IMG/VR virus record: IMGVR_UViG_3300030117_006016
Span: 1 to 28,057 of that record
DNA length: 28,057 nt
Source: a virus
Reading direction: 5' to 3' (one strand)
Both the position numbers and the translations under genes were made by a program. Below are positions 2,722 to 8,217 of the stretch, in pieces. The notes under the pieces are model-generated. The model saw nothing but the letters and a program-made list of their open reading frames with translations, was not told where the DNA came from and did not search any database. How positions within the stretch are numbered: position 1 is the stretch's first letter; every line of letters begins with the position of its first letter.

Positions 2722-2967
2722 TCATTCCTCTAGCTCAAATGGGTTAGTGCCATGGAATGGTAGCTCCCTCAGCAAGTCATTGTAGACAATGTCTGTAGCT
2801 TCCATAATGCTGGGGATAACATGTTCTAGTAGTTTCTTCTCTATGCTCTCCACTATTGATGCGCCGTCATTGCCGGTGGCCTTGCCTACATGGCGAGCAA
2901 TCCAAAGGAGCTGGTTTAAGTCCTTACCTTGAATCACATAGAGATTTTCCTCGTTAACGGGCTTCAT
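2722..2967 (-). CDS. Hypothetical protein, 81 aa
   Basis: I do not recognise this protein. It is acidic, largely helical in appearance, with no membrane segment or cysteine motif, and ends in an acidic tail (FELEE). The start is supported by GGGAGG about eight bases upstream. The ATG shares bases with the TGA of the upstream gene (ATGA overlap at 2964-2967), so it is probably translated by coupling. It is the last gene of the leftward block. Confidence 0.7.
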   Translation of the reverse strand: MKPVNEENLYVIQGKDLNQLLWIARHVGKATGNDGASIVESIEKKLLEHVIPSIMEATDIVYNDLLRELPFHGTNPFELEE

Positions 2968-3239
2968 TCGCTCGCCTCCCTCATAGCTAAAACACCCCTA
3001 ATAAAATCAATAGCCGACTCACCCTCTAGCTCCGTGTATTCGTCCCCATGCCCATCAATCCAAACGTGTAAAGTTTTCTCGACACCATACGACGCGGACA
3101 AGTAGAATGGGGTAGGGTCTAAAAGTTTTTCGTTTATCAATTGAACCATTGAATACCACGCGTCCCTTTCCCTATTGCGCCTAATTTCGGCCATGCGTTC
3201 CCGCGCTTCCGCTATCTGCTTTTTTGTTGGCTTGCTCAT
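2964..3239 (-). CDS. Hypothetical protein, 91 aa, basic helical N-terminus
   Basis: The product is not recognised. Residues 1-27 are strongly charged and helical (KKQIAEARERMAEIRRNRERD); the rest looks like a small mixed alpha/beta domain with DGHGDEYTELEGES at about 63-76. The start codon overlaps the stop of the upstream gene (ATGA). A degenerate copy of the block's leader (AAGGGTAAACAT before ATG) lies inside the upstream reading frame at 3240-3253, with the same seven-base spacing as the other copies. Function unknown. Confidence 0.7.
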   Translation of the reverse strand: MSKPTKKQIAEARERMAEIRRNRERDAWYSMVQLINEKLLDPTPFYLSASYGVEKTLHVWIDGHGDEYTELEGESAIDFIRGVLAMREASE

Positions 3240-3826
3240 ATGTTTACCCTTCCATGCTCTTTAATTGCTTTCCTTAGCAGGCTTTTCACTTTCTTTTCGC
3301 CTAGACCCATACGGCGGTTAAACAATGCCAAGCACTCGGCCTGCGTTTTACCGCGCGCGCTGGCCAGCCCAGTCCGATACTCGGTCAGAGTCCAGGCTCC
3401 ACGCTTGCCGTGCAAGTAATGAGTCAGGCCATACGCCTCGACATAATGGGACACCTCAACACTAGTAATCCCCCCATCATGAAATTCTGGGTTCATTCTT
3501 AGGTTGATTGTCTTTTTGACTTTCAATCGCTTGAGCTTGGCCATGGTCGGTTGATTGGCTTTCCTGGTCCCGTCCGTATTGTACAACCTGGCATCGGTCA
3601 CAACGGCGCTAGGTTTTAAGCGGTGGGCTATCTTGTCGTGACATGGGCCGCACGAAATAAGCCAACCTGTCTCACCTTCAATCAATACAGATTTTCTTGA
3701 GTCTAGGATTGTCCCACACCTGCACCACATTTTAGAACATACGACGCTATGCAGTGCGTTTAGGTTTGCTGCCAAATCTTTGTCTATGGTGCCTAGCATG
3801 GCGCCAGCAATTGCTTTTTCGTACAT
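3236..3826 (-). CDS. Hypothetical protein with cysteine cluster, 196 aa
   Basis: Residues 30-62 hold a cysteine array (C30, C35, C37, then CGPC at 59-62) that could form a zinc ribbon. The rest is basic, with two features: KLKRLKVKKTINLRMNPEF at about 97-115, and a C-terminal helix rich in lysine. The cysteines plus the basic surface suggest nucleic-acid or protein binding, but I do not recognise a family. The start is fixed by the conserved leader at 3827-3842. Its stop overlaps the next start (ATGA). Confidence 0.75.
   Translation of the reverse strand: MYEKAIAGAMLGTIDKDLAANLNALHSVVCSKMWCRCGTILDSRKSVLIEGETGWLISCGPCHDKIAHRLKPSAVVTDARLYNTDGTRKANQPTMAKLKRLKVKKTINLRMNPEFHDGGITSVEVSHYVEAYGLTHYLHGKRGAWTLTEYRTGLASARGKTQAECLALFNRRMGLGEKKVKSLLRKAIKEHGRVNI
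3240..3253 (-). promoter_or_regulatory. Degenerate copy of the AAAGGGTA leader
   Basis: Read on the minus strand this is GGAAGGGTAAACAT directly before the ATG at 3239. It matches the GGGTA core and the seven-base spacing of the leader seen upstream of eight other genes, but lacks the TTGA part because it lies within the 3' end of the upstream gene. Confidence 0.45.
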
Positions 3827-3842
3827 GGTTCTACCCTTTCAA
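3827..3842 (-). promoter_or_regulatory. Conserved leader/RBS (TTGAAAGGGTAGAACC)
   Basis: This copy of the leader directly precedes the ATG at 3826, with GGG seven bases before the ATG. The TGA stop of the upstream 43-residue gene lies inside it (TTGAAAGGG). Confidence 0.75.
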
Positions 3843-3970
3843 TCTGCTCGATAAACTACGATGTAGCCCCATTCCTCAATCATGAGATATGAGGCCCGGC
3901 GTGGCTTTTTTAACCGTCTGATAAATTGTTCGGCTTCTCGCTGTGTCAGAAATTTTCCTAGTTGTTGCAT
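3839..3970 (-). CDS. Small hypothetical protein, 43 aa
   Basis: This short frame reads MQQLGKFLTQREAEQFIRRL at the start and ends WGYIVVYRAD. It has a helical charged N-terminus and a short beta-like end. It is accepted because the conserved leader (3971-3986) sits exactly before its ATG and its stop falls inside the leader of the next gene, filling the gap perfectly. Its length, charge and ending resemble the neighbouring 60-residue protein, so the two could be distantly related, which I infer weakly. Function unknown. Confidence 0.65.
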   Translation of the reverse strand: MQQLGKFLTQREAEQFIRRLKKPRRASYLMIEEWGYIVVYRAD

Positions 3971-3986
3971 GGTCCTACCCTTTCAA
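3971..3986 (-). promoter_or_regulatory. Conserved leader/RBS (TTGAAAGGGTAGGACC)
   Basis: Precedes the ATG at 3970 with seven bases between GGG and ATG. The TAG stop of the upstream gene is the TAG within GGGTAG. Confidence 0.75.
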
Positions 3987-4157
3987 ATCGTAGATGCGAT
4001 AATTTGCCCCGATGGGATCTAATTGTTTCTTGATGATTCGCCGAACGTTGCGCATGGTCCCAACAGTCTGCCAACTAACGCAAACACTATTTCGGTAGAT
4101 TGCAGCAACCCATTGCCGACGGTGGCCCCTGAAAAATTCAATTGTTGTCTTACTCAT
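3975..4157 (-). CDS. Small basic hypothetical protein, 60 aa
   Basis: This arginine-rich protein (predicted strongly positive) has alternating strand-like segments: EFFRGHRRQWVAAIYRNSV and WQTVGTMRNVRRIIKKQL. It could bind nucleic acid, but no family is recognised. The start is set by the leader copy at 4158-4173, and its stop is embedded in the leader of the next gene, implying coupled translation. Confidence 0.7.
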   Translation of the reverse strand: MSKTTIEFFRGHRRQWVAAIYRNSVCVSWQTVGTMRNVRRIIKKQLDPIGANYRIYDLKG

Positions 4158-4173
4158 GGTCCTACCCTTTCAA
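4158..4173 (-). promoter_or_regulatory. Conserved leader/RBS (TTGAAAGGGTAGGACC)
   Basis: Identical over 16 bases to the copy at 3971-3986. It precedes the ATG at 4157, and the TAG within it is the stop codon of the upstream 301-residue gene. Confidence 0.78.
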
Positions 4174-5067
4174 AATGTTTAAACTGCTACGAATCACGAA
4201 CCCGCTAGAGTCTTGCTTGGCTTTGCCTAATGCCTTGAGCGCTACAATGCCTGGTGAATCTAAAAACCTTCTATCGTCGGCCGCGCCATCAATGGCCGGG
4301 TAACCTTGCCATGAACCGGCACGAACAATTGCCTGATATAGCGGGTATTCAAACACCATGGCCACGTTATAGCCACGCTCCAAAAGCTTAAGCCCTTGCT
4401 TATGGTTGCGCCCATCTTCTGACCTAGAAAATGTCAGGTGATAGTTGGCGGGTAGGCTTGGCTTAAATCTGCCATGTAGCTTGGTGTAATCGTAGAATTG
4501 AATTGCGGGGAATGATTTAAAAATCCAGGGTTCCTTCTTTTCCCACGCTATGTCACTGGTACCATTCAAACGAATAGCGGCCGCATGCCTTCTGGTGCTG
4601 ATGTTTTTCAGCAAGCCATAAAGCGTAAGAGCGAAAATTTCTCTATGCTCAAAATACATGCGTGTTCTTTTGATTCTACCGGCGGTAACGCCGCAAGTGG
4701 AACCATGCCCGCTAGTGACCAGACAGGACTCCCGACAACCTTTAGACGCACCAGGGCACACCTCGTAGCCACTCATATTGGCGGCCGCCAAATGCATCAC
4801 ATAGGATTTTAGCAAGCCACCACTGGCACGGTTGGAGGCTTCCATCTTGTGCTGGCCTTCACTGCTAAAAAAATCAGGAGCATGCTCAAGCCGCAATAGC
4901 TGGCGCGCAATGTCACGCGCCCAGAACTGATTTAGCCTGTCAACGGTTCCGGTTTTTTTGAGGTTGTCATAGGCCGCAACGGCGCGCCCCTTGTCGTATT
5001 TGATTGGGGCTAATGTTACGTAGTGACGTGTTTTTGTGGCCTTAGCCACCAAGTAGGTTCTAGACAT
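4162..5067 (-). CDS. GP88-like (gene product 88) family protein
   Basis: The 301-residue protein has the marks I associate with the phage 'gene product 88' family. These are a cysteine cluster CPGASKGCRESC (C104, C111, C115) with C125 following, then AIRLNGTSDIAWE (164-176), FYDYTKLHGRF (191-201) and HLTFSRSE (210-217). The family is widespread in phages and its biochemical role is unknown to me. The four cysteines suggest a metal or Fe-S site, which is inference. The start is fixed by the leader at 5068-5083. The N-terminal third (1-95) lacks recognisable motifs. Two GC-rich hairpins separate it from the upstream gene. Confidence 0.7.
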   Translation of the reverse strand: MSRTYLVAKATKTRHYVTLAPIKYDKGRAVAAYDNLKKTGTVDRLNQFWARDIARQLLRLEHAPDFFSSEGQHKMEASNRASGGLLKSYVMHLAAANMSGYEVCPGASKGCRESCLVTSGHGSTCGVTAGRIKRTRMYFEHREIFALTLYGLLKNISTRRHAAAIRLNGTSDIAWEKKEPWIFKSFPAIQFYDYTKLHGRFKPSLPANYHLTFSRSEDGRNHKQGLKLLERGYNVAMVFEYPLYQAIVRAGSWQGYPAIDGAADDRRFLDSPGIVALKALGKAKQDSSGFVIRSSLNILKG

Positions 5068-5083
5068 AATTTTACCCTTTCAA
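5068..5083 (-). promoter_or_regulatory. Conserved leader/RBS (TTGAAAGGGTAAAATT)
   Basis: Precedes the ATG at 5067 with the same seven-base spacing. Unlike the neighbouring copies it contains no stop codon of an upstream gene in use, because the intergenic hairpins lie just upstream. Confidence 0.72.
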
Positions 5084-5088
5084 GTTAT

Positions 5089-5112
5089 GCCTAGGGGGCT
5101 CAATCCCTAGGC
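5089..5112. repeat. Inverted repeat GCCTAGGG / CCCTAGGC
   Basis: Arms at 5089-5096 and 5105-5112 form a perfect 8-bp stem with an 8-base loop. It lies between the 66-residue gene and the GP88-like gene, immediately upstream of the latter's leader. It shares CCTAGGGGGC with the adjacent palindrome. Confidence 0.65.
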
Positions 5113-5141
5113 AAGGTGGCCCCCTAGGGGGCCCTTGTTTT
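5112..5141 (+). terminator. Strong hairpin plus T-run, oriented as a plus-strand terminator
   Basis: CAAGG (5112-5116) pairs with CCTTG (5133-5137), and inside it GGCCCCCTAGGGGGCC (5118-5133) is a perfect 16-base palindrome. On the plus strand the stem is followed by TTTTA (5138-5142). On the minus strand, the direction of the flanking genes, no T-run follows. It may stop antisense readthrough from the convergent plus operon, or serve as an RNA-processing hairpin for the minus operon. Confidence 0.5.
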
Positions 5142-5340
5142 ACTTGCTGTGATTCTCAATAAATTCTCTCACTTCGTCCGCGTCTGCTACACCTTTGAAA
5201 ATTAACCGGCGCCCGGCGTAAAGCTCAATCTCTGGGTCACCCGCTAATGAGTAGGCATCATTCTTGACTCGGATTTTAGTAACACCTTCCTTGAAAGCCA
5301 GTTGAGTAAGTGTGATTCGGCTGATTGAGTAAGTTGTCAT
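5140..5340 (-). CDS. Small hypothetical protein, 66 aa
   Basis: The product is not recognised. It looks like a small beta-rich domain (TYSISRITLTQL, KIRVKNDAY, EIELYAGRRLIFKG) closed by a helix (DADEVREFIENH). It is the first gene after an apparent leftward promoter (5377-5406). Its start is set by a variant leader (5341-5355). Confidence 0.7.
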   Translation of the reverse strand: MTTYSISRITLTQLAFKEGVTKIRVKNDAYSLAGDPEIELYAGRRLIFKGVADADEVREFIENHSK

Positions 5341-5355
5341 TGTGTGACCCTTTCG
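5341..5355 (-). promoter_or_regulatory. Variant conserved leader/RBS (CGAAAGGGTCACACA)
   Basis: The GAAAGGGT core and seven-base spacing to the ATG at 5340 are kept, while TTG is replaced by ACG and TA by TC. It lies in the untranslated leader downstream of a predicted promoter. Confidence 0.65.
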
Positions 5356-5376
5356 TTGTTTTTTTCCTACACCCCT

Positions 5377-5406
5377 GTTTTACAGTACAGGGAAGGGTAC
5401 AGTCAA
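5377..5406 (-). promoter_or_regulatory. Predicted leftward sigma70-type promoter
   Basis: On the minus strand TTGACT (5406-5401) is followed after 18 bases by TAAAAC (5382-5377). The predicted start is about 30 bases before the ATG at 5340. A TACAG direct repeat occurs between and around the boxes (5381-5402), which could be an operator. The architecture (18-base spacer, short leader, GAAAGGG element) is the same as at 7937-7966. Confidence 0.5.
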
Positions 5407-5443
5407 CAATAAAACAACAGGGAGTTAAAAAAAATACAACGGC

Positions 5444-6082
5444 CTATTTCCCCTGACCCCTCGCCCAATGTGGTGGATACCCGATACCTCGCCTTGTGTA
5501 ATTTCGTTGCAAATCAAGAATGAATCGAGCTGGCCCGGTTTCTTCCGGCTCTATGCCCCACCATACGCGCCAGTCTTCTAGCTCAACCTCGCTAGTGTTG
5601 TGCCACCAATTGAGAGCCTTGATACATCCGGCGTTCGTGTTGGCTAACCCTTGGATTTCCTGCGATACGTCTAGTCCCATCGATTGCAGGTATTCGGCCA
5701 TGCAAGCGAAATCGATATGATCCTGCAGGTGGTCTTCTATCTCGTGCCCCTCTGGATATTTGCCAAGGGGCATGAAATTAAACACGACCTCCCCTAAAGT
5801 CTTGTGCAAATCCTCAAGCAGGCCAGGATTATTGGCAGCTAAAAGCTTCAGCTCTTTCTCGGCTTGCTTGACAGCCAAGCGCAGCTCTTCGGTCTTGGCC
5901 TCGTCTGACCCATCGTCCGCCCCAAGGATACCGGCGAACTCTAAAACCCTTTTACCGGCCATGACATCAATGGCCATCTGCCAGGCTAAATCTACCGGGT
6001 AATGGTGTGCCCCCGGTGTGTAAATCGTACGGATTGCAAACCCGAGCGAATCAAGAATAACCAGGCCTCTATCGTTTCTCAT
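5444..6082 (-). CDS. Hypothetical acidic protein, 212 aa
   Basis: I do not recognise this protein. Residues 58-100 (DEAKTEELRLAVKQAEKELKLL) look like a charged helix. The C-terminal part is rich in tryptophan (WWHNTSEVELEDWRVWWGIEPEETGPARF, about 159-187) and ends in a basic, glycine-rich tail (YTRRGIGYPPHWARGQGK). No signal peptide, transmembrane segment or cysteine motif is visible. AGAGG lies nine bases before the ATG. The gene starts within the 3' end of a 45-residue gene (14-base overlap). A 103-base gap follows before the next promoter and gene. Confidence 0.72.
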   Translation of the reverse strand: MRNDRGLVILDSLGFAIRTIYTPGAHHYPVDLAWQMAIDVMAGKRVLEFAGILGADDGSDEAKTEELRLAVKQAEKELKLLAANNPGLLEDLHKTLGEVVFNFMPLGKYPEGHEIEDHLQDHIDFACMAEYLQSMGLDVSQEIQGLANTNAGCIKALNWWHNTSEVELEDWRVWWGIEPEETGPARFILDLQRNYTRRGIGYPPHWARGQGK

Positions 6083-6206
6083 TTTTATCTACCTCTAAGG
6101 CTCGCTCGCTCGCCTTCAAAATTTCCTGAACACGTGGCGGGAATGGTTTGACTAAGACCTTCTTGGGCTGGTCTCTTTTGGCCCTAGGTGGCTTACTTTT
6201 CTTCAT
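6069..6206 (-). CDS. Small basic protein, 45 aa
   Basis: The frame begins MKKSKPPRAKRDQPKKVLVK and ends in a charged helix (VQEILKASERALEVDKNEKR). It is accepted because GGAGG lies seven bases before the ATG, the ATG overlaps the upstream stop as ATGA (6203-6206), and it fills the gap between two genes, overlapping the next by 14 bases. The lysine- and proline-rich N-terminus suggests nucleic-acid or protein binding; the function is unknown. Confidence 0.65.
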   Translation of the reverse strand: MKKSKPPRAKRDQPKKVLVKPFPPRVQEILKASERALEVDKNEKR

Positions 6207-6646
6207 TGGTAATCCTCCGGATTGAGTAACCTGTTAAGGATATTGTGAAACCCTGCCGGCAACTGTGCCTCTAGAATCTCGACCATGGTTTCACGGTTAT
6301 TTTGTTTTGACTTTCGAAGCTCTTCTTTGAGTGATTGAATCTCCTTCGCGAAAGCCTCCGCTGTCTTTTGCCAGTAATCCACACGTTTTTGATTTACCTT
6401 GACGAAGTTATCGTACTCTCTTTTTATTTCACGCTCGGAAGCCAGCGCTTGAGAGTAGCTTATTTTAACGTCCTCAAGTTGTTTTCTCAGTGGAGTTTTA
6501 GGTCTTTGAACTAACTTATTAAACTTCTCCTCTAGTTTTGAGTAGCGTAGTTTCTCATTAGCCAGCTCTTTGTTCACCTCTTTTCTGCTCTTGCGTTGCT
6601 TGGATATTGTAGTCTTTAGCTTTTGGATTTCTTCCTCATGTGTCAT
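6203..6646 (-). CDS. Coiled-coil protein, about 147 aa
   Basis: Starting at MTHEEEIQKL, nearly the whole protein is highly charged heptad-like helix (residues about 5-125), broken by QRPKTPLRKQ near 48-57. It ends in a short non-coil tail (AGFHNILNRLLNPEDYQ). I prefer the ATG at 6646 because AAGGGG sits six bases upstream. The GTG at 6664, which overlaps the upstream TGA, is an alternative adding six residues. It probably forms rods or oligomers; the partner is unknown. Confidence 0.7.
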   Translation of the reverse strand: MTHEEEIQKLKTTISKQRKSRKEVNKELANEKLRYSKLEEKFNKLVQRPKTPLRKQLEDVKISYSQALASEREIKREYDNFVKVNQKRVDYWQKTAEAFAKEIQSLKEELRKSKQNNRETMVEILEAQLPAGFHNILNRLLNPEDYQ

Positions 6647-6660
6647 AATCGCCCCCTTCC

Positions 6661-6921
6661 TCACACAATCTCCATAGCCTCAAAGAACGCCAGCAATTTT
6701 GGGCACTTGGTCGCATACATGAGACGCTGCAAGGCCTCCCACTGATCACTACTCAATTCGTCTAGCTGGTTTTGGAATCCCTCAAATGTTTCGGCCTTGC
6801 CAAGCTCTGGCTCTGGCTCGCAGCAATAGCCCTCGGACCTATGGTAGCGCGTTCCACAACCCTCGCACTTCGTGAAATAGAGGCCCCAATCGTCGGGAAC
6901 ATTATGTAGAAACGATGGCAT
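6661..6921 (-). CDS. Small protein with zinc-ribbon-like cysteines, 86 aa
   Basis: Residues 19-34 contain C-x2-C then CC (C19, C22, C33, C34), a likely half of a zinc ribbon or a compact zinc knuckle. The remainder is an acidic helical domain (ETFEGFQNQLDELSSDQWEALQRLM, about 44-68) followed by YATKCPKLLAFFEAMEIV. No family is recognised. AGGGGG eight bases upstream supports the ATG. Confidence 0.7.
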   Translation of the reverse strand: MPSFLHNVPDDWGLYFTKCEGCGTRYHRSEGYCCEPEPELGKAETFEGFQNQLDELSSDQWEALQRLMYATKCPKLLAFFEAMEIV

Positions 6922-6925
6922 ATTA

Positions 6926-7159
6926 TTAACCCCCTAGCTCGTCGTGCATCGCCTTCAACTCGGTATCATGTACAGCAATTGCGGCGCCCATTCCCTCTGG
7001 GCTTGATGCATAACCGACTAACACCCATTCGCCATAGTTGGCCCATAGCTCAAAAACGCCATGCGTCGTGGGGTGTAGTTCATAGTCAACACTCAGCCCG
7101 TCCCAATGCTTTTCTGTCATTGTCTTAGCTGGCTGGCTTGTCGGTTTTGAATCTCTCAT
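6926..7159 (-). CDS. Small hypothetical protein, 77 aa
   Basis: The true start is most likely the ATG at 7159 (MRDSKPTSQP), because GGGAGGGGG lies about six bases upstream and the ATG overlaps the upstream TGA as ATGA. The longer open frame to 7300 overlaps the upstream gene and has an atypical Arg/Gly-rich composition. Residues 22-70 look like a small alpha/beta domain (GVFELWANYGEWVLVGYAS). Function unknown. Confidence 0.68.
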   Translation of the reverse strand: MRDSKPTSQPAKTMTEKHWDGLSVDYELHPTTHGVFELWANYGEWVLVGYASSPEGMGAAIAVHDTELKAMHDELGG

Positions 7160-7338
7160 AACTCGCCCCCTCCCTCGCATGGGTGCCCTAGTTCGTCCAT
7201 CAGGGCCTCGGCTCTTTGAATGGTGTGGATTGCTCGTGCACTCTCCGGAGAAATTACACCCGGAATCAAGCGCTCTTTTTCTTGCTCTATGAGCGCCCAC
7301 AAGCCCCTGCAGATCAGTTCTTTATCTTCGTTGGTCAT
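7156..7338 (-). CDS. Small hypothetical protein, 60 aa
   Basis: A largely helical acidic protein (MTNEDKELICRGLWALIEQE and SARAIHTIQRAEALMDEL), not recognised. The start is fixed by the leader at 7339-7354. A hairpin with a three-base loop lies directly upstream of that leader. The stop overlaps the next gene's start. Confidence 0.7.
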   Translation of the reverse strand: MTNEDKELICRGLWALIEQEKERLIPGVISPESARAIHTIQRAEALMDELGHPCEGGGEL

Positions 7339-7354
7339 GTCGTTACCCTTTCAA
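7339..7354 (-). promoter_or_regulatory. Conserved leader/RBS (TTGAAAGGGTAACGAC)
   Basis: Full copy of the leader, seven bases between GGG and the ATG at 7338, immediately downstream (minus sense) of a stable small hairpin. Confidence 0.75.
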
Positions 7355-7389
7355 GGTGGTTTCACCACCAAAGCCCGCACTAGGCGGGC
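7355..7389 (-). repeat. Two consecutive hairpins between minus-strand genes
   Basis: Read on the minus strand, GCCCGC-CTAGT-GCGGGC (7389-7373) is followed by TTT, and then GGTGGT-GAA-ACCACC (7369-7355). The first could be a weak terminator after the 71-residue gene. The second abuts the conserved leader of the next gene and may be an RNA-processing or stabilising stem. Confidence 0.55.
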
Positions 7390-7413
7390 AATGTGGGGCT
7401 ATGTGGTTGGTTG

Positions 7414-7629
7414 TCAGGCTAGACCATAACCCTTCAGCCATTCGTCGTGGATTTCCAGGTCGGCCTCTAAGTCAAAGTAGGCATGGCGCCCCGTGCTAGG
7501 TTGCCACATGTAAAGCACCTTATGACCCGTGCGGGTAATAAAGGGCTTCTCTAGTTGGTTGCATGCCGGGACCCATGGGCCATCTTGCTTGGCCCTTTCG
7601 GCCGCGTCTAATCGTTCTAGCAGGTTCAT
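7414..7629 (-). CDS. Small hypothetical protein, 71 aa
   Basis: Not recognised. A helical start (MNLLERLDAAERAKQDGPW) is followed by a short beta-rich core (PFITRTGHKVLYMWQPSTGRHAYFDL) and a negatively charged helix. TGAGGAG lies eight bases before the ATG and includes the stop codon of the upstream 40-residue gene. Confidence 0.7.
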   Translation of the reverse strand: MNLLERLDAAERAKQDGPWVPACNQLEKPFITRTGHKVLYMWQPSTGRHAYFDLEADLEIHDEWLKGYGLA

Positions 7630-7641
7630 AGCTCTGACTCC

Positions 7642-7764
7642 TCAGTAGGTTAGTGCGTCGATGATTTGTGACACGGTGCATCGGAAGGTCTTACGGTAGT
7701 AGATGCGCATAGCCCACGATACCTGACTTGCTGACACAGCGCGTTGCATTCGAATGTATGACAT
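7642..7764 (-). CDS. Small basic hypothetical protein, 40 aa
   Basis: This short frame begins MSYIRMQRAVSASQVSWAMR and ends VSQIIDALTY. It has a basic helical first half and could include a small helix-turn-helix-like fold (VSASQVSWAMRIYYRKTFRCTVSQIIDAL), but 40 residues is too short to be sure. It is accepted because the leader AAAGGGTAACATC precedes the ATG with the usual spacing and the gene fits exactly between its neighbours. Confidence 0.6.
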   Translation of the reverse strand: MSYIRMQRAVSASQVSWAMRIYYRKTFRCTVSQIIDALTY

Positions 7765-7778
7765 GATGTTACCCTTTG
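7765..7778 (-). promoter_or_regulatory. Conserved leader/RBS (CAAAGGGTAACATC)
   Basis: The AAAGGGTAAC core is kept with seven bases from GGG to the ATG at 7764. The TAA of the upstream 44-residue gene lies within GGGTAA. Confidence 0.68.
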
Positions 7779-7903
7779 TTTTCGATGAAGGATTTGAGTT
7801 CAATTGCCTTGGCTTCGCACCCGGCTTTGGTGCCTACCCATACTTCTAGGCCATCAATCACCAGCTCGTAGTTACCATCGGCGTATGTGATTGTGATGTT
7901 CAT
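7769..7903 (-). CDS. Small hypothetical protein, 44 aa
   Basis: The frame from MNITITYADGNYELVIDGLE looks like a compact beta-hairpin followed by a helix (GTKAGCEAKAIELKSFIENKG). The open frame extends upstream to 7966, but that extension would run through the predicted -10 box at 7937-7942. The leader at 7904-7918 marks the ATG at 7903, so I use the shorter form. It is the promoter-proximal gene of the leftward block. Confidence 0.65.
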   Translation of the reverse strand: MNITITYADGNYELVIDGLEVWVGTKAGCEAKAIELKSFIENKG

Positions 7904-7918
7904 GCGTTGCCCTTTCAA
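7904..7918 (-). promoter_or_regulatory. Conserved leader/RBS (TTGAAAGGGCAACGC)
   Basis: Leader copy with C in place of T after GGG and six rather than seven bases to the ATG at 7903. A run of eight T (minus strand) precedes it. Confidence 0.68.

Positions 7919-8163: not shown

Positions 8164-8217
<54 letters not shown>

Follow-up and report, generated by a model that had tools for sequence, protein, structure and literature searches.

The stretch of viral DNA analysed here (the window) is a record of 28,057 bases in which the primase-polymerase, terminase, portal-like and tail genes all run rightward, and a block of small genes runs leftward (Table 1). Nine of the leftward genes, unrelated to one another, are each preceded by a near-identical 16-letter leader at the ribosome-binding position, and all nine sites lie where the original prediction had placed them. 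A further seven genes of the block have GGAGG-type sites, as originally described, or GGGGG-type sites, those at 6646 and 7159 being mutually alike. Gene starts are those of our own gene caller. The window has no DNA-level match among GenBank phages, and its protein matches are distant only; 10 small proteins of the block match no PHROG, and a terminase profile found no match in bacterial genomes. The small genes at 7642, 7769, 3839, 3975 and 6661 show 58–95% conservation in relatives. Going by the sample numbers, the virus is presumably marine.

Five leaders share the exact pattern TTGAAAGGGTA-N5-ATG (3824-3842, 3968-3986, 4155-4173, 5065-5083, 7336-7354); the 11-mer occurs nowhere else on either strand of the window, and a reversed-pattern control gave 0 matches. 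AAAGGG is retained in eight of the nine leaders, the ninth (gene start 3239) reading GGAAGGG. The spacing is as originally described, with GGG seven bases before ATG in eight leaders and six bases before it in one (7903). The minus strand holds 16 copies of AAAGGG, eight of them at leader starts, and the plus strand five. Similarity among the repeats ends at the start codon. Stop codons of upstream genes, which had been noted as embedded in the leader, lie within it in four cases and occupy two reading frames (at 3826 the TGA of TTGA; at 3970, 4157 and 7764 a TAG or TAA after GGG), so that leader identity is not a by-product of coding. No late gene of the window has the leader, and in relatives it is located on the non-structural strand. 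Paralogy of the small genes as a source of the repeats was rejected, since their similarity (weak scores only) is too slight to explain them.

Table 1. Leaders, stem-loops and gene block on the minus strand of the window
Feature	Sequence	Position	Strand	Remarks
Leftward block		2722..7903	-	~16 small genes, 9 with leader
Weak leader copy	GGAAGGGTAAACAT	3240..3255	-	precedes 91-aa gene 2964-3239
Leader	TTGAAAGGGTAGAACC	3827..3842	-	precedes 196-aa gene 3236-3826; holds TGA stop of gene 3839-3970; L021 homology ends within
Leader	TTGAAAGGGTAGGACC	3971..3986	-	precedes 43-aa gene 3839-3970; holds TAG stop of gene 3975-4157; L021 copy identical
Leader	TTGAAAGGGTAGGACC	4158..4173	-	precedes 60-aa gene 3975-4157; holds TAG stop of GP88 gene; L021 homology restarts 13 nt upstream
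Leader	TTGAAAGGGTAAAATT	5068..5083	-	precedes 301-aa GP88 (PF17338) gene 4162-5067; L021 counterpart precedes DUF7227 gene
Two stem-loops	GGCCCCCTAGGGGGCC (5118-5133); GCCTAGGG/CCCTAGGC (5089-5112)	5089..5133	-	just upstream of GP88 leader; 95% match to L021 6514-6472
Leader	CGAAAGGGTCACACA	5341..5355	-	precedes 66-aa gene 5140-5340
Leader	TTGAAAGGGTAACGAC	7339..7354	-	precedes 60-aa gene 7156-7338
Intercistronic element		7336..7404	-	stem-loop, second small hairpin, leader, ATG; leader of 60-aa gene 7156-7338 is its 3′ end
Element stem, inner	GCCCGC/GCGGGC	7389-7384/7378-7373	-	
Element stem, outer	CCAC/GTGG	7396-7393/7368-7365	-	
Leader	CAAAGGGTAACATC	7765..7778	-	precedes 40-aa gene 7642-7764; holds TAA stop of gene 7769-7903; AAAGGG retained in L008, L020, L021
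Leader	TTGAAAGGGCAACGC	7904..7918	-	precedes 44-aa gene 7769-7903 (first of block); L011 homology ends within

The claim that conservation extends beyond a Shine–Dalgarno core is borne out by the flanking TTG and TA columns, in which 37 of 45 cells agree, against a mean of 20 for a null in which flanks were drawn from AGG sites on the same strand (p ~5e-6). Duplex energies were computed with two common 16S tails, which may not match that of the host: with one tail the means were -8.5 for leaders, -8.3 for late genes and -12.8 for the other block genes, and with the second -5.3 for leaders and -11.3 for the other block genes. The leaders thus pair more weakly with the anti-Shine–Dalgarno sequence than the other ribosome-binding sites of the block, which argues that the leader was not selected for maximal pairing. 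Together with the flank agreement, this amounts to conservation beyond 16S pairing of the kind that characterizes SAS motifs (see below).

Searches with the terminase and primase recovered relatives at ~52% to 100% identity, all of them incomplete metagenomic records. Five close relatives (L021, L009, L008, L011 and L020) share this leader type, frequently before genes that the window lacks, and in the first four it stands before unrelated genes. Among the distant relatives, L154 and L155 have the recurrent leader GTAGGGTGAACAA-ATG in the equivalent block; G008, G009, G015 and G019 have AACAAGGACAACACC-ATG; G010, G011, G014 and G018 have GAGCTAACCCATTCAGGAGAAAACT-ATG and GAGCTAACC(A)ATG; and G016 and G017 have a AAAGGAAGCAAA-type leader. 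Whether relatives keep only an AAGG-type core amid random flanks, a question raised with the original prediction, has a mixed answer: in close relatives AAAGGG is kept best and the TA after it and the C before ATG persist, whereas TTG is only one variant of the upstream part and alternates with ACG and ACA, and distant relatives have a different leader altogether. On sequence comparison, the leader is a lineage-specific family, and distant lineages have swapped the whole leader for another recurrent one. A box, GAGCTAAC, occurs near ORF starts at 10, 9, 7, 5 and 4 sites in G014, G010, G011, G018 and G008, respectively, and does not occur in the leaders of the window itself. A wide spread of the leader was considered and rejected: TTGAAAGGGTANNNNCATG was found in 99 stretches among all viral contigs, with one match per contig among those listed, which is about the chance expectation, and it clusters only in the clade of the window.

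Leaders of non-structural genes are homogenized within genomes, those of late genes hardly so. In a test on 13 records, with genes from our own caller, which misses some small ones, leaders of unrelated non-structural genes were identical at 14 or more of 20 positions in 21 of 1737 pairs within genomes and in 29 of 21144 pairs between them (~9-fold rate); for late genes the corresponding counts were 3 of 2885 and 17 of 31148. At 13 or more of 20, 23 pairs were observed, whereas 1000 permutations of the genome labels gave 7.1 pairs on average and never more than 16. The effect on mean leader identity is small (6.00 vs 5.84 of 20); a subset of the non-structural genes, not all of them, is alike in leader.

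Homology between the window and its relatives starts or stops at leaders, with junctions at 5071, 4186, 3837 and 7913. Beyond 5071 the window continues into GP88 and L021 into DUF7227, so that unrelated genes occupy the same slot behind the leader at which homology breaks. At 4186, homology to L021 resumes shortly before the next leader (Table 1); at 3837, L021 is without the leader and the genes downstream; and at 7913, L011 runs on into a different gene. Orthologs also differ in leader among these phages. The 86-aa gene at 6661 is preceded by CTAGGGGGTTAATAAT in the window, TTGAAAGGGTGAAGAC in L021, CTGGGGGTGAACCC in L009 and TTGAAAAAGGTGAAGCC in L011, and the gene at 7769 has AAAGGG in its leader in the window and AAAGGAGC in L008, which indicates that leaders and genes have been recombined freely. 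Phages commonly exchange genes at gene borders, and junctions at leaders are therefore no proof that the leader drives exchange. AAA_24 and DUF669 genes are present in a neighbouring record whose primase is 98% identical. The AAA_24 family includes Sak4-type phage recombinases, and a Sak4-type recombinase of this neighbour would supply a relaxed recombination activity.

At 7336-7404 the leader is part of a longer intercistronic element with a stem-loop; like the gene-swap junctions, this hairpin goes beyond what had been observed originally. The element has nine strong copies across the window and its close relatives, between unrelated genes and three of them in L011 alone, and distant relatives have single weaker copies. 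The region 7416-7335 is conserved by itself between unrelated genes of the window and its relatives. The stem shows compensatory changes, with 94% of cells paired and a covariation score that was reached by 0 of 500 shuffles; with three distant copies added, four stem pairs have double changes, and RNAalifold independently recovers the same inner stem. An Rfam search gave no significant match, and a promoter consensus scan listed no match at the element. Downstream of the stem there are no more than three or four U (UUU or UUUU) before GUGG, and the terminator scan does not list 7404-7358. The stem is perhaps a weak terminator or a signal for mRNA end formation or processing. Among all viral contigs, the hairpin patterns were found only in the clade of the window and in one unrelated-looking contig, L192, in which no leader follows the hairpin.

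To our knowledge, SAS motifs are known only from actinobacterial phages. The SAS of cluster K mycobacteriophages, GGGATAGGAGCCC, is a short sequence at the ribosome-binding position with many copies in one orientation (Pope et al., 2011; PMC3203893; also covered in PMC12699233 and PMC11373665), and its role in translation initiation is likewise described as unproven (PMC3203893, PMC11373665). The SAS and the present leader are alike in standing before unrelated non-structural genes, mostly with ATG, in conservation beyond 16S pairing and in containing upstream stop codons. They differ in sequence and phage group, and the SAS consensus is common to K1-K3, whereas the leader varies by lineage. 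The cluster K consensus is not matched by the window leader, TTGAAAGGGTANNACC, which is hence SAS-like only. The ESAS of cluster K, a longer second element with inverted repeats upstream of some start sequences, resembles the intercistronic element, but its 17-bp inverted repeats are described as not supporting RNA pairing and as holding SigA-like promoters (PMC3203893, PMC11373665), unlike the covarying stem described here. In Microbacterium phages, the cluster EF motif GGGAAAGGACCCC has 10 well-conserved copies at the ribosome-binding position and a weaker upstream element, and an 18-bp motif of cluster EC lies in gaps between genes, 21-30 bp upstream of starts (PMC7302621). These phages and sequences are unrelated to the present ones, and the available part of the report contains no analysis of gene-swap junctions (PMC7302621). 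The parts of these sources that describe SAS, ESAS and the Microbacterium motifs report no covarying RNA stem (PMC3203893, PMC12699233, PMC11373665, PMC7302621). The leader is apparently an independent, lineage-diversified SAS-like case in uncultivated phages. SAS motifs have been without explanation since 2011, and the present leader ties such motifs to exchange junctions and a covarying stem.

The leader is probably, with moderate confidence, a SAS-like start module that serves both as ribosome-binding site and as cassette-exchange boundary. It would combine an AAAGGG core at fixed spacing, the ribosome-binding site proper, with flanks particular to each lineage; the whole would have been copied to positions ahead of many unrelated non-structural genes and would act in cis as a translation start region. 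Its recurrence at one gene start after another may also provide short stretches of homology for the gain, loss and exchange of genes as cassettes, and this would keep the copies within a genome alike. At some junctions, the leader would form the 3′ end of the longer intercistronic RNA element with its conserved stem-loop. The distinct leader of each relative suggests a reusable start module at the places where such viruses swap genes. In lambdoid phages, short conserved boundary or linker sequences at gene starts (ninR region) have been proposed as places of homologous recombination between cassettes; our literature search found little on boundary sequences or repeated ribosome-binding sites in other phages. 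Start sequences acting as cassette boundaries that also express the inserted genes would be a concrete alternative for SAS motifs.

A small but real chance remains with another reading, already disfavoured, in which the leaders are ordinary ribosome-binding sites: AAAGGG would pair with an extended 16S tail (CCUUUC), and generic spacing, A-rich flanks, coincidence and the shared descent of a few neighbours would account for the rest. GAAAGG is indeed complementary to a ...CCUCCUUUCU tail, with such a tail the leaders pair about as strongly as the late genes, and AAAGGG is the best-kept part in close relatives. Against this reading stand the flank agreement, the far better pairing of the other block genes, and a within-genome excess of similar leaders that is found in non-structural and hardly in late genes; paralogy, too, is too weak to supply the repeats. 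The original prediction also allowed a site for a phage or host RNA-binding protein that coordinates a subset of genes, to which a small RNA may be added, the leader having co-evolved with the factor in each lineage. Conserved positions outside the anti-Shine–Dalgarno pairing region, lineage-by-lineage replacement and limitation to non-structural genes fit such a factor, and the position before ATG and the conservation beyond a Shine–Dalgarno core that the prediction described are upheld. The coordination of a fixed subset is not: sister-phage orthologs have unrelated leaders (four in four phages for gene 6661, two for gene 7769) and often lack this one, and a regulon of fixed membership is hard to reconcile with so loose a link between gene and leader. 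No candidate factor was identified, and this explanation is unlikely. Quite improbable, in our estimate, is a lineage-specific start code in this phage group, in which every lineage would have come to use one sequence of its own at its non-structural leaders, recognized by a trans-acting factor of that lineage, only genes with the current leader would be well expressed, and incoming genes would have to be captured behind it.

A last possibility, that the leaders are promoters, for example for a phage RNA polymerase of the single-subunit type that initiates at GGG, takes its appeal from the resemblance of TAACC...AAAGGG to the phage T3 promoter, which ends in CTAAAGGGAGA; CTAACCACAAACAAAGGG, present in L011 and L021, was likened to this end. 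Such promoters are highly improbable here. Copies differ by 3 nt or more in the spacing between TAAC and AGG, and transcription would start 7-10 nt before ATG, often within the upstream coding sequence. A T7-type polymerase was not found in 14 records, in a weak search whose controls gave no signal, nor among the large proteins of the window and its neighbour. Moreover, a sigma-70-like sequence, seen by eye and not listed by the consensus scan, precedes the whole block (TTGACG 7966-7961, TACAAC 7942-7937).

The sequence TTGACG-N18-TACAAC preceding the leftward block of small minus-strand genes is, as judged by eye, a likely candidate for a host-type promoter that would drive the entire block. 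TTGAC...TATAAT-like sequences, which resemble it by eye, lie at the equivalent place in three close metagenomic relatives (L011, L021, and L009). A long CT microsatellite like that next to the block is also carried by L008 and L021.

GAGG(A/G)AGGGGGCGA(T/G)TTATG constitutes a second recurrent leader of a type distinct from the main leader. In the distant relatives L167, L171, L176, L185, and L186, many start codons have the octamer GAGCTAAC within about 40 nt upstream, placed either directly at the start (GAGCTAACC(A)ATG) or farther back, preceding an AGGAG site, and at some start codons the octamer is also found immediately downstream.

GP88-family (PF17338) and DUF7227-family (PF23872) genes interchange in a single slot with conserved neighbors on both sides. 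Neither family is known to have an established function.

Coordinates of features in the window and its close relatives
Feature	Location	Strand	Remark
TTGACG-N18-TACAAC	window 7966-7937	minus	~35 nt upstream of the block's first gene; by eye
Long CT microsatellite	window 8165-8200	minus	immediately upstream of the leftward block
Second-type leader	window 6647-6665	minus	before gene 6203-6646
Second-type leader	window 7160-7179	minus	before gene 6926-7159
Second-type leader	L011 333-352		before one L011 gene
GP88-family gene (PF17338)	window 4162-5067		slot shared with DUF7227-family gene
DUF7227-family gene (PF23872)	L021 5742-6467		slot shared with GP88-family gene
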